This document shows, piece after piece, positions 146 to 30,126 of a DNA stretch of 40,348 nt; the stretch's first letter is position 1; each line of letters begins with the position of its first letter. Made by a program: the position numbers and the translations under genes. The stretch is from an uncultured Acidobacteriia bacterium. GTDB taxonomy: Bacteria > Acidobacteriota > Terriglobia > Bryobacterales > Bryobacteraceae. The stretch spans positions 1 through 40,348 of the forward strand of contig CAIRXZ010000006.1 of the NCBI GenBank assembly GCA_903882645.1, read 5' to 3'. The notes below the pieces were generated by a model. It made no database searches, had not been told where the DNA came from, and saw only the letters and a program-made list of their open reading frames with translations.

Positions 146-161
146 TGCGTGGGGCAATCTC

Positions 162-247
162 CAAGCCCGTAGTGTGCCCAGTGGGGCGGACCTCCTGGTC
201 TGCCTTCTTGCGTTACCCGCTCGACAATACCCTCAAGCCCGTAGTGT
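162..247. repeat. 14-bp direct repeat flanking the solitary REP-like unit
   Basis: CAAGCCCGTAGTGT occurs at 162-175 and again at 234-247, 72 bases apart, with the REP-like unit 181-209 between. It could be a remnant of duplication around an inserted repeat or part of a composite repeat. No gene lies here. Confidence 0.45.
181..209 (+). repeat. REP-like 29-bp unit, solitary copy
   Basis: This matches base for base the right arm of the inverted pair at 28060-28134 beside the RAYT gene, about 28 kb away. Each unit begins GTGG and folds by itself: arms GGCGGACC and GGTCTGCC pair, with one G-T wobble, around a four-base loop. A short 5' tetranucleotide followed by an imperfect hairpin is the usual build of REP sequences served by RAYT transposases. 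This copy has no transposase beside it. Confidence 0.75.
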
Positions 248-347: not shown

Positions 348-1343
348 ATGAAGCTCGCCGGCTTTTTGCTCGTTCTGGTTCTGCCCGCTTTCGGGCAGTA
401 TTCGGCCCGCAGGGACGACGATATCATTCGCCTGGAAGACGCCTCGCGGCAGACCGTCGTTTCGGTAACGCCGTCGCGCGGCAACAACGCTCTCTCGATG
501 AAGGTCAAAGGCAAGGAGGTGCTGGCGGGAATCCCGCCGGGGATGAGCGGCGTCCCCTTTCTGGCGCCCTGGGCCAACCGCCTGGACGAAACCGCGTTCT
601 TTGCCAACGGGAAGAAGTACACGTTCAACCTGGGCCTGGGCAACGTCCGTGGTCCGATTCCCAGCCATGGAATGCTGCTGAACGCCAGTCAATGGGAGGT
701 GATCGAGGCCAAGGCGGATCAAAACGCCGCCTGGGTGACCAGCCGGCTGGACTTCTACCGCTATCCCGACTGGATGGCCCAGTTTCCGTTCGCCCACACC
801 ATCGAGATGACGCACCGTTTGAAGGACGGGGCCCTCGAAGTCGCGGTCAAGCTCAACAACCTGAGCGCCGCGCCCATGCCCGTCTCCATCGGCTTCCACC
901 CGTTTTTCCAGGTTACCGATGCGCCGCGCGACGAGTGGACATTCCAGGTCGCCGCGCGCCTCCACTGGATCCAGAATCAGAACATACCCACAGGCGAGAC
1001 GGAACCGGTCGAGAAATTCCTGCCCATCAATCGCGGCGGGCCGCTCAAAGGACAGAAACTCGACGACGTCTTCAGCGACCTCATCCGCGACTCCGAGGGC
1101 AAGGCCGTCATGTGGCTCCAAGGGAGGAACGAGCGGGTCGAAGTCTCCTTCGGCCCGAACTACAAAGCCGCCGTGGTCTGGTTCCCCGCCGGACCCACGC
1201 AGAACTTCATCTGTTTCGAGCCTATGGCCGCCATCACCGACGCAATGAACCTGGCGCAGAAGGGCATCTACAAGGAGTTGCAGTCCATCCCGCCCGGCCA
1301 ATCGTGGCAGGAGAGTTTCTGGGTAAAGCCGGTGGGGTTCTGA
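348..1343 (+). CDS. Exported aldose 1-epimerase-like protein (mutarotase fold)
   Basis: A 331-residue protein of the galactose mutarotase/aldose 1-epimerase superfamily, which interconverts sugar anomers. The ATG at 348 was chosen because it opens a clear signal peptide (MKLAGFLLVLVLPAFGQ) and has GGGAG just upstream. The frame is open further upstream, but that part reads through repeats. Family landmarks: NRLD around residue 77, His107 in PSHGML, His184 in GFHPFF, and Glu291 in FEPMA, which match the two catalytic histidines and the catalytic glutamate. The signal peptide implies periplasmic or surface action, unlike cytoplasmic GalM. It stands alone, with no sugar operon beside it; substrate unknown. 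Confidence 0.82.
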   Translation: MKLAGFLLVLVLPAFGQYSARRDDDIIRLEDASRQTVVSVTPSRGNNALSMKVKGKEVLAGIPPGMSGVPFLAPWANRLDETAFFANGKKYTFNLGLGNVRGPIPSHGMLLNASQWEVIEAKADQNAAWVTSRLDFYRYPDWMAQFPFAHTIEMTHRLKDGALEVAVKLNNLSAAPMPVSIGFHPFFQVTDAPRDEWTFQVAARLHWIQNQNIPTGETEPVEKFLPINRGGPLKGQKLDDVFSDLIRDSEGKAVMWLQGRNERVEVSFGPNYKAAVVWFPAGPTQNFICFEPMAAITDAMNLAQKGIYKELQSIPPGQSWQESFWVKPVGF

Positions 1344-1503
1344 GCGGCTGAAGGCCGGACGCGGGAACACGCGGTCGTGAACCCGTTCACCGCCTCGGAC
1401 CTGGGCCGCGTGTGGCGAAACCGGCGCGATTATCCGGCGGAATTCGCTCGGCGGTTGTTCCGCTAGGGCCGCCGATCGTAGATAATGGAACAGAGGGCAA
1501 CCG

Positions 1504-1866
1504 ATGAGCTGCAAAACCGCCGTGCGCTACGTGGGCGATGTCGCGATCATAGACGTCTCCGGCCGCATCACCCTGGGGGAAGGTTCCGGGATGCTGCGTG
1601 AATTGATCAAGGACTTGGTGAAAGCGGGCGACAAAGACCTGCTCGTAAATCTCAACGAAGTCACCTACATGGATAGCTGCGGGCTGGGCGAACTGGTGGG
1701 GGCCTATGCCAGCGTCACCAACGCGGGCGGCGCGATCAAGCTGCTGAACCCGCAGGGCCGCGTCGCGGAAATTCTCAACGTGACCAAGCTGTACACCGTT
1801 TTCGAGACTTTCTCGGACGAGGCCGCGGCGGTGCGGAGCTTTCCCGCCCCGGCCGCCGGCGCCTGA
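1504..1866 (+). CDS. STAS-domain anti-sigma factor antagonist (SpoIIAA/RsbV type)
   Basis: A 120-residue protein that is essentially one STAS domain. In this family an anti-sigma kinase phosphorylates a serine of the antagonist, controlling release of a sigma factor or another partner. The phosphorylation motif is MDSCGLG with Ser58 as the likely target, followed by the typical amphipathic helix and the KLLNPQGRV...ILNVTKL segment. An AGAGG ribosome site precedes the ATG. The C-terminal Ala/Pro tail is short and disordered. No kinase or phosphatase gene is adjacent, so the partner must be encoded elsewhere. It converges on the phosphate operon across a palindromic repeat. Confidence 0.88.
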   Translation: MSCKTAVRYVGDVAIIDVSGRITLGEGSGMLRELIKDLVKAGDKDLLVNLNEVTYMDSCGLGELVGAYASVTNAGGAIKLLNPQGRVAEILNVTKLYTVFETFSDEAAAVRSFPAPAAGA

Positions 1867-1872
1867 TGGCCG

Positions 1873-1952
1873 TTGTGGCGCGGACTCTCAGTCTGCCGCG
1901 TCCCCGCTCCTGGGGACGCTTGGGTCGTCGCGGCAATGTGAGAGTCCTTGCC
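1873..1952. repeat. Double-hairpin palindromic repeat, family B copy 1, between convergent genes
   Basis: It starts GTGGCGCGGACTCTCAG and contains a 22-base hairpin at 1898-1919 (arms GCGTCCCC and GGGGACGC). GGACTCTCA at 1882-1890 pairs with TGAGAGTCC at 1939-1947, enclosing that hairpin in an outer stem. A related copy lies at 9274-9318. Between the copies the eighth stem pair changes from C-G to G-C, so pairing is kept. The element lies between the STAS gene and phoU, where it could also act as a bidirectional terminator, though no T-run follows. Confidence 0.7.
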
Positions 1953-1962
1953 ACGCAACCCG

Positions 1963-26987: not shown

Positions 26988-27148
26988 TCTAATAAGGCAG
27001 TCTCGGTTCCGCTCCGAACCTTGCAGGGTTTCCTCAGAGAATCACCGCACCGCCAGGTTCGAAGAAGAACAAAGACCGCGCGCCGCACGCCCGCCGCGGC
27101 GATGCAGACGCGCCAGAATACCGGCAGATGGAGGCCTGAGCGGAACTG

Positions 27149-27349
27149 TTACTTCTGTTTCTCTTCCAGGATGGCCTTCAGGCCGGCGATCTCGCGCTTC
27201 AACTTGCGCTCGCGGGCGACCATCGTCAGGACGTAAACCGCCAGGATGACCCAGGCGGCGGCGAGACCGTAGCTGAGGAACTCGTACTGGTGCTGGAGGA
27301 TTTCCTCCTGGGTGGCGAGCTGCGCTAGAAATACGACTTGTCCGGGCAT
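27149..27349 (-). CDS. ccmD: CcmD family protein
   Basis: A 66-residue protein with one membrane helix (about 27-46) and a highly charged C-terminal helix (VARERKLKREIAGLKAILEEKQK), as in CcmD, which helps release haem-loaded CcmE from the CcmABC complex. AAGGAG six bases before the ATG is a strong ribosome site. It is the last gene of the ccm operon, 10 bases after ccmC. Confidence 0.82.
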   Translation of the reverse strand: MPGQVVFLAQLATQEEILQHQYEFLSYGLAAAWVILAVYVLTMVARERKLKREIAGLKAILEEKQK

Positions 27350-27359
27350 GGGATTCTCC

Positions 27360-28034
27360 TTATAGGGCGTGCGCCGTCCGGCGCAGCGAATCGATCTCGC
27401 GCTGCGCGTCTTCCTGGCGCAGCCGCACGGCGGCGATGACTATGCCGAGCATCAGCATGGCCGCCATGTTCCACAGGAAGTGGCGCGTCCAGTCGGGCGG
27501 AAAGCTGCCGCCCGACCAGAAGACCGGAGACGGATGCTGCGTGCGCCACCACTTGATCGAGAAGATCACGATGGGCACGTCGATGAAGGCGAAGATCGAG
27601 AACACGGCGGCGAAGGTGGCGCGCTGGGTCGGCTCCTCGATGGCCTTGCGCAGCATCAGGTAGCCGGCGTAGAGCAGCCAACACACCAGCGCCGAGGTAA
27701 GCCGGGCGTCCCAGGTCCACCAAATGCCCCAAATCTCGCGGCCCCAGATGGAGCCGGTGACCAGGTTGGCCGCCAGGAACGCCAGCCCAACTTCGGTGGA
27801 GGCCACGGCCATGGCGTCGAACCTGAAATTCCTAGTGACCAGGAAACCCGCGCTCGCAAGGAACGCCACGCAAGCCGCGGTCATTGCGGCGATCGCCACG
27901 GGGACGTGGAAGAAGATGATCTTGAACACGACCCCCTGCTGCGTTTCTTCGGGTAAACCGGCGATGGTGATGGTGTTCCACGCCAGGATGACCAGCGCCG
28001 CGGCGCCGAGTATGTAAAGGACCTTTTCGCGCAT
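27360..28034 (-). CDS. ccmC: Haem handling protein CcmC
   Basis: A 224-residue six-helix membrane protein that loads haem onto CcmE with CcmAB. The tryptophan-rich motif appears as WGIWWTWDARLTSALVCWLLYAGYL, with flanking histidines. The start was placed at the ATG at 28034, with GGAG six bases upstream, giving MREKVLYILGAAAL; the longer open frame reads back into the palindromic repeat 28060-28088 and is not credible. It is separated from ccmB by the transposase insertion, so its expression relies on read-through or a new promoter. Confidence 0.93.
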   Translation of the reverse strand: MREKVLYILGAAALVILAWNTITIAGLPEETQQGVVFKIIFFHVPVAIAAMTAACVAFLASAGFLVTRNFRFDAMAVASTEVGLAFLAANLVTGSIWGREIWGIWWTWDARLTSALVCWLLYAGYLMLRKAIEEPTQRATFAAVFSIFAFIDVPIVIFSIKWWRTQHPSPVFWSGGSFPPDWTRHFLWNMAAMLMLGIVIAAVRLRQEDAQREIDSLRRTAHAL

Positions 28035-28059
28035 TAGATTCTCCAAGATTACTAAAACC

Positions 28060-28134
28060 AAGAAGGCAGACCAGGAGGTCCGCCCCACCCAAGCACGCCG
28101 GTTCAGTGGGGCGGACCTCCTGGTCTGCCTTCTT
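28060..28134. repeat. Inverted pair of REP-like units (BIME-like)
   Basis: The arms 28060-28088 and 28106-28134 are perfect 29-base inverted copies separated by 17 bases. The pair can form one 29-bp stem, or two separate hairpins as each unit is itself self-complementary. The transposase stop codon lies in the spacer, and the right arm encodes its last nine residues. Confidence 0.9.
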
Positions 28135-28684
28135 CATTCAGTTTGCACCCACCATAGGCGCTCGACCAGGGCCAATCTTCAGGCCGCTCCGTCAATCCGG
28201 CCGCCACCGGATTGAATTCTATGTATTGCACTATCTTTCCAAATTCCTTCTGATCGCGCACCCAGCGATCGAACGACTCATCCTGCCAGAAGGGTTCGCC
28301 TGTCCGTCCCAGGATCTCATTCGGCCGCTTCGCCGAGAACGTCTTGATGCTTTTCGTGATTTTGGGAAGCGCGGCATTCGGCTCGATCAAGATGTGAAGG
28401 TGATTTGCCATCAGTACCCAGGCATGGAGGCTGTACAAACGCAGAGATTCCTGGCCAAACTGCAGGGTCTCAATGACGCATTGCGCAACGCGTTCGTCTT
28501 TGAGCCAGGATGGGCCGGTGGCGGCCTTCGCTAATTCGCGGTCTATGGCCACGAACGCCTTTCCGGCGGGCAATTCAACCGGCGGGCGCAACGAACGCGG
28601 CAGTGAGCCGTGCAGACGCCACGTGACGAAGATCGCGGCGTGCTCGGGATGCCAATGCGGCAGGCGCCGTTCGTAATAAGCCAT
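28103..28684 (-). CDS. REP-associated tyrosine transposase (RAYT, IS200-like HUH)
   Basis: A 193-residue single-domain Y1 HUH nuclease/transposase. HUH is seen as MANHLHIL (His95, His97), followed by the FWQDESFDRWVR box (about 132-143) and YIEFNPVAAGL with Tyr154 as candidate nucleophile. The N-terminal AIFVTWRLHGSLP is typical of the family. RAYTs process REP hairpins as single-stranded DNA. The ATG has no good ribosome site. The C-terminal tail EGRPGGPPH is encoded by the adjacent REP unit. All key residues are intact, so activity is plausible. Confidence 0.92.
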   Translation of the reverse strand: MAYYERRLPHWHPEHAAIFVTWRLHGSLPRSLRPPVELPAGKAFVAIDRELAKAATGPSWLKDERVAQCVIETLQFGQESLRLYSLHAWVLMANHLHILIEPNAALPKITKSIKTFSAKRPNEILGRTGEPFWQDESFDRWVRDQKEFGKIVQYIEFNPVAAGLTERPEDWPWSSAYGGCKLNEEGRPGGPPH

Positions 28685-28699
28685 AACAAATTCAAAACC

Positions 28700-28728
28700 A
28701 AGAAGGCAGACCAGGAGGTCCGCCCCAC
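28700..28728 (-). repeat. REP-like unit upstream of the RAYT gene
   Basis: An exact 29-base copy of the unit, oriented with its GTGG foot towards ccmB, 16 bases before the transposase start codon and 19 bases after the ccmB stop. The flanking bases AAAACC at its other end match those beside 28060-28088. Confidence 0.88.
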
Positions 28729-28747
28729 CAAGGCAGGCGCTCGCCTG

Positions 28748-29428
28748 TCACCCCACCAGCACCGTCTCCACCAGGAACAGCGACACCGCCGTATACACCA
28801 CGTCGAAGCCGATCAACATTCTCAGCCAGCGCGCCGTCTCAGGCCCGATGGCGTTCCCGACAATCAATTCCATGGTCAATCGCATGGCCGCCATCAGCGC
28901 CGGCGTCAGGATCGGATAGGTCAGCATCGGGAGCATCACTTCGCGCAGCCGGATGTTGACGGTCAAAGCGCTGAAGACGGTTCCGATCACCGTCAATCCC
29001 CACGTTCCCAACGCCAGAACCAGCATCAGCTCGCCGAACCGGCTGGTCCAGCGCACATTGTAGAAAACGCCGAAGACCGGCAAAGAGACCAGCTCCACCG
29101 CCAGGACCAGCACATAGTTCGCCAGCGCCTTTCCCAGGAACAACGCGGCGCCGGAGATGGGCGCGGCCACCAGGGCGTCCAGGCAGTCGTTGGGCAACTC
29201 GCGGGCGAAGCTGCGGTTCAGGACCAGCGCGCCGGCAAAGGCGAAGACGATCCACAGCAGCCCGCCGGAGATAGCCTTCGTCGTGTCGGCCTCGGGGTCG
29301 AAGGCAAAGCTGAACAGCACCAGAATGACCACGGCGAAACCCAGGGACGCGTTGATGGCCTCCTTGGTGCGCACCTCGGCGCGCAGGTCCTTCATCATCA
29401 CGACCAGCGCCGCTCGAAAGAAGCCCAT
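28748..29428 (-). CDS. ccmB: Haem exporter membrane subunit CcmB
   Basis: A 226-residue membrane protein with about six helices, partner of the ATPase CcmA. Family landmarks are VVMMKDLRAEVRTKEAINASLGFAVVILVLFSFAFDP, LNRSFARELPNDCLDALVAAPISGAALFLGKALANYV and the central P-rich LREVMLPMLTYPILTPALMAAM. The ATG at 29428 overlaps the ccmA stop (TGATG), which defines the start. The RAYT unit begins 19 bases after its stop. Confidence 0.93.
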   Translation of the reverse strand: MGFFRAALVVMMKDLRAEVRTKEAINASLGFAVVILVLFSFAFDPEADTTKAISGGLLWIVFAFAGALVLNRSFARELPNDCLDALVAAPISGAALFLGKALANYVLVLAVELVSLPVFGVFYNVRWTSRFGELMLVLALGTWGLTVIGTVFSALTVNIRLREVMLPMLTYPILTPALMAAMRLTMELIVGNAIGPETARWLRMLIGFDVVYTAVSLFLVETVLVG

Positions 29429-30126
29429 CAGCCCTCGCCGTAGCGCGCGTAAACCAGCCCGGGGTCGGCCGCCATTTCCGCCGTACACGGGCCGTGAAAC
29501 GCCACCTTGCCGCGGACCAGCAGCGCGACGTGCGAGGCAAGCTCGAGAGCTTCCCTCAACTGGTGGGTCGACATTACGATGGTCTTGCCGCGGGCCAGGG
29601 CATCGCGGAGCAGGTGTTGCAGCACCGCGATGGCGCGGTCGTCGAGCGCGGTGAACGGCTCGTCCAGCAGGAGCACCGAGGGGTCGTGCAGAAAGGCGCG
29701 GGCCACCGCCAGGCGCTGGCGCATGCCGCGCGAAAACTCCCGCACCAGTCCGTCCCGCACGCGCTCGAGGCCCGTGCGCTCCAGCCATTCCAGAGCGCGG
29801 GCGCGCGGATCGGGCAGGCCGTAAAGCCGGGCGTAGAGCAACAGGTTCTCCAGAGCGGAAAGCTCGTCGTAGACCGAGATGCCGTGGCCGATGAAACCGA
29901 TCCGGCGGCGCGTTTCGGTCGCGCGGGGCTCGTTGCCGAAAATCAGGATCTTGCCGCGGCCCGGCCGGGAAAAGCCCGCGATGGCGCGCAGCAGCGTGGT
30001 CTTGCCGGCGCCGTTTCGCCCGATGAGCGCAAGGCAGGCGCCGGCATCGGCCTGAAGGTGGATGTCGCGCAGAGCGGGAAAGTCCCCGTAGAACTTCCAG
30101 ACGCCCTCAACCGCGACGGCGCTCAT
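29428..30126 (-). CDS. ccmA: Cytochrome c maturation ATPase CcmA
   Basis: A 232-residue ABC ATPase that drives release of holo-CcmE from CcmC/CcmD. Walker A is GRNGAGKTT near residue 36, the signature is FSRGMRQR near 132, Walker B is SVLLLDEPFTALD, and the switch His is in MSTHQL. The start overlaps the end of the preceding gene by 20 bases. It is translationally linked to ccmB. Confidence 0.93.
   Translation of the reverse strand: MSAVAVEGVWKFYGDFPALRDIHLQADAGACLALIGRNGAGKTTLLRAIAGFSRPGRGKILIFGNEPRATETRRRIGFIGHGISVYDELSALENLLLYARLYGLPDPRARALEWLERTGLERVRDGLVREFSRGMRQRLAVARAFLHDPSVLLLDEPFTALDDRAIAVLQHLLRDALARGKTIVMSTHQLREALELASHVALLVRGKVAFHGPCTAEMAADPGLVYARYGEG

Follow-up and report, generated by a model that had tools for sequence, protein, structure and literature searches.

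Introduction

What is a RAYT gene doing between ccmB and ccmC? In the window, i.e., the whole 40,348-nt stretch of DNA analysed here, positions 28054-28728 hold a RAYT gene on the minus strand together with three 29-nt repeat units, and ccmB, the RAYT gene, and ccmC share a single direction, all being on the minus strand. We read the locus as a REPtron, that is, a RAYT in its own outward pair of GTGG REPs with a third REP, lodged between ccmB and ccmC, and put the probability of this reading at roughly 0.87.

A RAYT cassette between ccmB and ccmC

The features concerned are the following:

181..209, plus strand: fourth REP copy, with an exact 24-nt core at 181-204, then TTCTT
27148..27349, minus strand: short ORF where ccmD would be, from a crude gene call, with a function suggested by position alone
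27360..28034, minus strand: ccmC, start codon at 28034 (PF01578, 107.3 bits; TIGR01191, 144.8 bits, below cut-off)
28060..28088, minus strand: REP3, a direct repeat of REP1
28089..28105, minus strand: 17-nt spacer, TGAACCGGCGTGCTTGG, between the feet of REP2 and REP3
28106..28134, plus strand: REP2, foot outward, on the downstream side of the RAYT gene and overlapping the 3' end of the ORF
28103..28684, minus strand: RAYT (TnpAREP), 193 aa, a Y1 HUH transposase (ORF, NF047646, PF01797, and motifs)
28700..28728, minus strand: REP1, foot outward, on the upstream side of the RAYT gene and made up of GTGG, the hairpin, and TTCTT
28748..29431, minus strand: ccmB (PF03379, 128.5 bits)
29428..30126, minus strand: ccmA, the haem exporter ATPase (Pfam and NCBIfam)

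The three units around the gene, with the sequence GTGGGGCGGACCTCCTGGTCTGCCTTCTT, are 100% identical or complementary to one another. REP1 and REP2 form an inverted pair with outward feet that brackets the RAYT gene over a span of 623 nt (28106-28728), and REP2 and REP3 form a feet-inward dimer, separated by the 17-nt spacer, on the 3' side of the RAYT. The likeness of REP3 and REP1 continues beyond the unit, to 28054 and 28694, respectively, and includes a 45-nt stretch that is 93% identical. The RAYT ORF crosses most of REP2 and takes its stop codon from the spacer beyond it, so about 10 C-terminal residues are encoded by the repeat. The spacer resembles those of the 2 other feet-inward pairs in the genome as well as the start of locus L001. 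An earlier reading made from the sequence only had proposed a REPtron with an intact HUH motif and tyrosine, three exact 29-nt units, a perfect inverted pair among them, and a further copy far off in the window, and motif and repeat comparison confirmed each of these elements, including 100% identity between 28106-28134 (plus) and 28700-28728 (minus).

The insertion is absent from relatives

A search for ccmC returned a match in 36 of 37 genomes, and 30 loci were examined, one of them being the window's own. When queried with the RAYT, none of the 29 relatives' ccmC loci was found to contain one. In all 20 relatives' loci with both genes, the gap between ccmB and ccmC, estimated from alignment ends, is approximately 4-92 nt, versus 714 nt here; ccmB was not recognised in 9 of the 29. 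The gap is 6 nt in genus mate G003, 63 nt in genus mate G001, and 4 nt in G004, which is of the same family. The three same-genus genomes are 81-95% complete, and none belongs to the same species. In the third genus mate, G002 (L050, on G002:C311), ccmC is found without ccmB upstream, a gene in the opposite direction being there instead, and this genome offers no ccmB-ccmC junction to compare.

In the window, the interval between ccmB and ccmC contains the cassette and nothing more. The frames of ccmA, ccmB, and ccmC are open and score above their Pfam family cut-offs, and the NCBIfam equivalog cut-off is passed by ccmA only (ccmB, 68 of 156 bits; ccmC, 145 of 186 bits). The empty sites in relatives point to a lineage-specific REPtron insertion, in line with the original proposal that the unit had entered between ccmB and ccmC, and among the genomes compared only the window's lineage carries the cassette there. 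The assembly is built from short reads and could contain an error at the repeats.

The RAYT protein

The predicted protein matches NF047646 at 80.0 bits, which only just meets the cut-off of 80 (80.5 bits in the genome search), and PF01797 at 25.7 bits (cut-off 23). NF047646 gives 79.5 bits for the RAYT at locus L106, a sister of the window RAYT, and 57-65 bits, under the cut-off, for two further RAYT lineages of the same genome, B and C. The HUH motif is present as HLH (His95/His97), the single catalytic tyrosine as Tyr154 within YIEFNP, an instance of YIxxNP, and W133 and Q134 lie between them. In the guide region, FWQDESFDRWVR, placed visually with the help of the motif and a phmmer alignment, W133, Q134, D139, R140, and R143 take the places of the guide-recognition residues W94, Q95, E/D100, H/R101, and R104 in E. 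coli numbering (PMC6006769). Among 99 relatives, the two HUH histidines are conserved at 99% and 99% and the tyrosine at 98%, and the guide W, Q, D, and R together with the HUH/Tyr residues at 94-99%.

The best PDB match by sequence is 4er8, the E. coli RAYT bound to REP (E 5e-5). An AlphaFold2 model built from 35 sequences (pLDDT 85, pTM 0.81) likewise retrieved 4er8 at rank 1 in Foldseek (E 5.8e-8, TM 0.57/0.62), with the ISDra2 and IS608 transposases as the next structural matches. The nearest named RAYT relatives come from Bryobacterales and other Acidobacteriota, from which the host can be inferred to be acidobacterial, and a PHROGs scan gave a single weak match to an unnamed family. Subclass 2.4 (RAYT group 4) is defined by NH[IFV]H, WQ, YIxNNP, and a median HUH-to-Tyr spacing of 88 (PMC6006769); the window protein, with NHLH, WQ, YIEFNP, and a spacing of 57-59, falls outside it. 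In the motif table of the same source, it is nearer to subclass 2.7 ([ND]HVH, WQ, YI[LR][NQ]NP), without being identical.

The REP-A unit is a dispersed family

Within the window, the 24-nt core has four matches with up to three mismatches allowed, all of them exact, and 0 in 100 shuffles. The window's own genome (5.27 Mb, 366 contigs) holds 137 copies of this repeat, here called REP-A, at no more than two mismatches (67 plus, 70 minus; 0 for a reversed-pattern control), and 146 if the fourth loop base may be C or T. The repeat is dispersed genome-wide, in agreement with the sequence-only reading. Among the 102 distinct copies with flanks from which the copy statistics were drawn, the foot is GTGG in 96, the hairpin loop is TCCC in 51 and TCCT in 49, and the fourth stem pair is G.T in all 102. 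As single-stranded DNA, the strand with GTGG folds into a 4-nt foot and an 8-pair stem at -7.7 kcal/mol, which 0 of 200 shuffles equalled, and the opposite strand folds at -5.4 kcal/mol with one A-C break. The wobble-containing hairpin behind a GTGG foot that had been noticed at the outset is found in most of these copies, and of the features that mark a REP, a GT[AG]G foot adjoining a hairpin and a high copy number are present. The edges of the unit are sharp: GTGG through TTCTT is conserved, with a 5' flank that is variable except for CA, so the beginning of conservation at the foot and its drop after TTCTT define the 29-nt unit.

Close pairs (within 250 nt, up to four mismatches) number 20, of which 12 are feet-outward, 5 direct, and 3 feet-inward, the feet-inward ones having a common spacer, TGAAC-Y-S-GCGTGC-Y-TG(G). 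As to the mainly extragenic placement that also marks REPs, 53 of 97 copies lie outside crude gene calls, compared with a non-coding share of 16%, and 44 lie inside (coding share 0.836); these are soft figures from a poor gene caller, which missed ccmB and stretched ccmC over REP3.

Several copies show more than the unit itself. The REP at 181 is embedded in a longer dispersed sequence (window 161-209; also L015, L024, and L025), several copies carrying CAAGCCCGTAGTGTGCCCA before and TTCTTGCGTTMCCCGCTCG after the REP, and this flank cluster comprises 8 of the 102 copies. The feet-outward pairs L016, L204, L221, and L231 have a common inner sequence near TTCTTTCCGCGACGCAYGYTCGAG and may represent a single REPIN subfamily dispersed as a whole.

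Three GTGG lineages in one genome

Besides the RAYT on C6, the window's genome encodes RAYTs on contigs C155, C223, and C296, which belong to two other clades in a quick tree. Each of them lies in an outward GTGG pair with a stem different from that of the window unit. REP-C, GTGGGGCAGGCGGTTTCGCCTGCC, is present in 108 copies, and REP-B, GTGGGGCAGCCAATCCTGGCTGCC, in 6, of which 4 are at the two REP-B RAYTs. The genome thus holds three GTGG REP/RAYT lineages with different hairpins, at 137, 108, and 6 copies. Across relatives, a RAYT was found at E <= 1e-15 in 21 of 61 genomes, the own genome counted.

The cassettes on C223 and C296 (L034 and L035) are 92% identical across 745 nt, and their likeness past the REPs is small, amounting to 16-17 nt on one side and about 43 weaker nt on the other. 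Between the two genes there are 24 synonymous and 9 non-synonymous substitutions (dS 0.20, dN 0.022, dN/dS ~0.11). In genome G023, a tandem pair of RAYT cassettes (L275, on G023:C159) is 94% identical across 680 nt, the copies being ~1.07 kb apart. Together, the duplicate and the tandem pair indicate that RAYTs in this group do get copied. The duplication of L034/L035, with just 6 REP copies in the genome, gives this RAYT an IS-like appearance.

Further Y1 loci were observed alongside these. Locus L286 (G002:C610) is a RAYT remnant lacking the HUH and WQ regions, with no REP-A found near it, and G002 still carries 35 REP-A-like copies. Locus L036 (G000:C316) encodes a Y1 protein with NHVH and YVVDDQ (ORF 1321-1860) between repeats at 1149-1316 and 1863-1892 that start GTCAGAGCCGCGACCGC; with motifs matched by eye to PMC6006769, it looks like a TnpAY1 of class 3 with a CnGA foot. 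Locus L031 (G000:C214) contains a RAYT-like ORF (1186-1953, minus strand; NF047646, 80.3 bits) flanked by inverted repeats with arms at 1160-1182 and 1953-1975, which contain GGGGACAG, a sequence consistent with the GGGGWSAS motif known from acidobacterial TIRtrons (PMC3733652).

Foot and hairpin change across relatives

The window RAYT forms a clade with the RAYTs of G033, G023, and L106 (4 rows, SH-aLRT 97). Two of these three clade mates, at 59% and 68% identity, have flanking GTAG units, so that the GTGG foot which the sequence-only reading assigned to this family is not fixed even close to the window RAYT. The flanking unit of L106 and L078 is GTAGGACAGGCCTCCYGGCCTGTC, and the G033 RAYT gene has a GTAA variant upstream, for which no partner was found. 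Copies of the GTAGGACAGGCCTCCYGGCCTGTC unit number 226 in G033 and 98 in G023, and in both genomes its stem occurs with either GTAG or GTGG as the foot. Compared with the window unit, it has one or both bases replaced at pairs 2, 4, and 6 without loss of pairing, and the loop remains TCCY. Pair 6 has gone from A-T to G-C in 16 of the 35 copies in G002, 4 others being changed on one side or mismatched at that pair. Pair 1 of REP-C is C-G in 18 and A-T in 4 of the 100 copies listed, instead of G-C.

Stem and loop vary with RAYT clade. The state of the foot requires 11 changes on the tree, where 55 rows are labelled, whereas 200 shuffles required 12-22 (mean 17.8), which suggests a foot that is inherited but labile. 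These labels, assigned by an automated search for hairpins, are noisy (103 proteins: 35 G, 23 A, 11 mixed, 34 none), 9 of 112 loci having been dropped from the RAYT set for short matches along with 4 duplicate proteins. Among 32 G-foot and 23 A-foot RAYTs, a search for a residue that tracks GTAG versus GTGG turned up no convincing column in the guide region, the top columns being lineage markers in a comparison uncorrected for descent.

The TTCTT tail also follows the RAYT-adjacent REP in G023 (L269) and G033 (L285), and few dispersed REPs there have it, which looks as though, in the window's lineage, the copy beside the RAYT had served as master.

The dinucleotide before the foot

CA stands directly 5' of the foot in 55 of the 102 REP-A copies and in 34 of 68 flank clusters, against a background of 5.5%, and CC does so once in 102. 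A GTGG foot on a Marinomonas REP was cut in vitro at CA and CC (PMC8266576), meaning that the flanking CA is one of the two sites reported for GTGG in that group 3 REPtron. In G023 and G033, CA precedes 1 of 16 and 2 of 19 copies and CT one in each, and in REP-C, CA precedes 0 of 12, the base just before the foot being G in all 12. These 35 sister-genome copies and 12 REP-C copies rule out CA as a general rule. With no CA or CT preference in the GTAG sisters or in REP-C, the guide reading is suggestive only, the CA flank fitting the published guide model for GTGG in part. Because CA agrees with the in vitro site, footprints in genomes could serve to test the guide model beyond enterobacteria and pseudomonads.

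A wider picture, which we offer tentatively and hold to be rather doubtful, is an Acidobacteriota RAYT/REP radiation in which the third base of the foot flips between A and G along the RAYT tree, matched changes on the two sides of the stem remodel the hairpin, and, in the living genome, the dinucleotide at which cutting or insertion takes place is set by the foot (CA before GTGG). If true, this genome with its three GTGG systems would offer a natural setting in which to test transposase-guide co-evolution, and lineage B would be an IS-like RAYT copying itself and not its repeats.

Proposed mechanism and alternatives

Under the REPtron reading, the RAYT would bind the single-stranded GTGG hairpin and cut beside it via Tyr154, with a metal held by His95/His97, and would move REPs, REP pairs (REPINs), and occasionally its own gene through single-stranded DNA. 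The cassette would have settled between ccmB and ccmC with the same orientation as the operon genes, both of whose frames are still open. We infer binding, cleavage, transposition, and arrival by the cassette's own enzyme from what can be observed at the locus and in related genomes, i.e., the anatomy with its outward inverted pair around the RAYT, the dispersed copies and their sharp edges, the empty sites, the conserved catalytic and guide residues, the fold and its match to 4er8, the two further GTGG RAYT lineages, the compensated stem changes in G002, REP-C, and the GTAG sisters, and the 12 of 20 close pairs with feet outward.

The alternative that survives best concerns the arrival: the cassette may have come by homologous recombination between REPs, or along with other DNA, its RAYT acting on REPs only or being domesticated. 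REP1 and REP3 are direct copies across 45 nt, which would fit recombination at a pre-existing REP, REPs are numerous in this genome, and RAYTs are mostly low-copy and diverged within genomes (Corneloup 2018, PMC6006769). However, no other DNA accompanies the cassette between ccmB and ccmC, the lineage B cassette occurs twice in the genome with ends close to its REPs, and G023 has its tandem pair. We regard this route as unlikely, though a serious competitor.

A role of the hairpins as operon terminators or mRNA stabilisers, with the RAYT nearby by coincidence, is improbable. As RNA, REP2, the spacer, and REP3 fold at -75 kcal/mol (z -10.8), so that a perfect 29-bp stem with a T-rich tail precedes ccmC, and REP1 and REP3 are two of the four terminator-like matches in 27900-28900 (shuffles average 1.0); promoter-like sites in the same interval number 0 (shuffles 0.6). 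Against this stand the exact dispersed copies in both orientations and the variation of stem and loop by RAYT clade. A side effect of the hairpins on the transcript is compatible with the REPtron reading. As for the operon escaping harm, which the sequence-only reading supposed, its frames are open but ccmC now has this RNA stem in front of it. An ordinary IS200/IS605 element (TnpAIS200) would share the Y1 HUH fold, as the ISDra2 and IS608 matches illustrate, but is very improbable given no match of the window protein to the IS200 family (NF033573) at E <= 0.001 (26 bits versus 55 for the sister L106), the NF047646 score at cut-off, NHLH and YIxxNP motifs that differ from those of IS200 (PMC6006769), and more than 100 dispersed solo hairpins.

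Comparison with known systems

Elements of this kind are known, and a GTGG foot has been reported before from other bacteria. Earlier work describes RAYTs flanked by inverted REPs whose heads are GTAG or GTGG, with co-evolving stems and copies in the hundreds, the GTGG variant being listed for P. putida, P. fluorescens, and Stenotrophomonas (Nunvar 2010, PMC2817692); the canonical foot is given as GT[AG]G (Corneloup 2018, PMC6006769), and most GTAG-20 elements of O. terrae have GTGG (Di Nocera 2013, PMC3733652). With such feet in print and GTAG repeats at sister RAYTs, the novelty of the GTGG foot fails. As to the host, none of the open-licence texts consulted names a GT[AG]G REPtron for Acidobacteriota.

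The window element is like the GT[AG]G REPtrons (PMC2817692, PMC6006769) in its HUH-Y1 domain and W-Q...D/E..R guide region, in the inverted REPs around the gene, in having at least 100 dispersed copies, and in a RAYT-specific REP family. It differs in its acidobacterial host, a phylum in which the text of those two papers names class 3 with a CnGA foot only (Solibacter, with ~600 hairpins; Corneloup 2018), in having two other GTGG lineages beside it, and in a gene whose 3' end runs through a REP, an arrangement known as '3'ov' (PMC3733652). The E. coli TnpAREP structure 4er8, the best match in both fold and sequence, is 19% identical across the structural alignment, and unlike its REP, the window REP has a perfect stem with no bulge, save for the one G.T pair. 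As in the REPINs of Pseudomonas fluorescens SBW25 (PMC3116915), inverted REP pairs occur as a dispersed unit, but here solo REPs predominate among the copies examined and the close pairs include inward and direct ones. The TIRYTs and TIRtrons named in Acidobacteria (Koribacter etc.; Di Nocera 2013, PMC3733652) likewise place a Y1 transposase between terminal inverted repeats, and lineage B behaves nearly like them, whereas the window element carries GTGG feet and its REP family is abundant. With it, canonical GT[AG]G REPtrons reach a phylum for which the texts consulted name other Y1 types, TIRYT and class 3; several REP/RAYT systems share the one genome, and relatives have the site empty.
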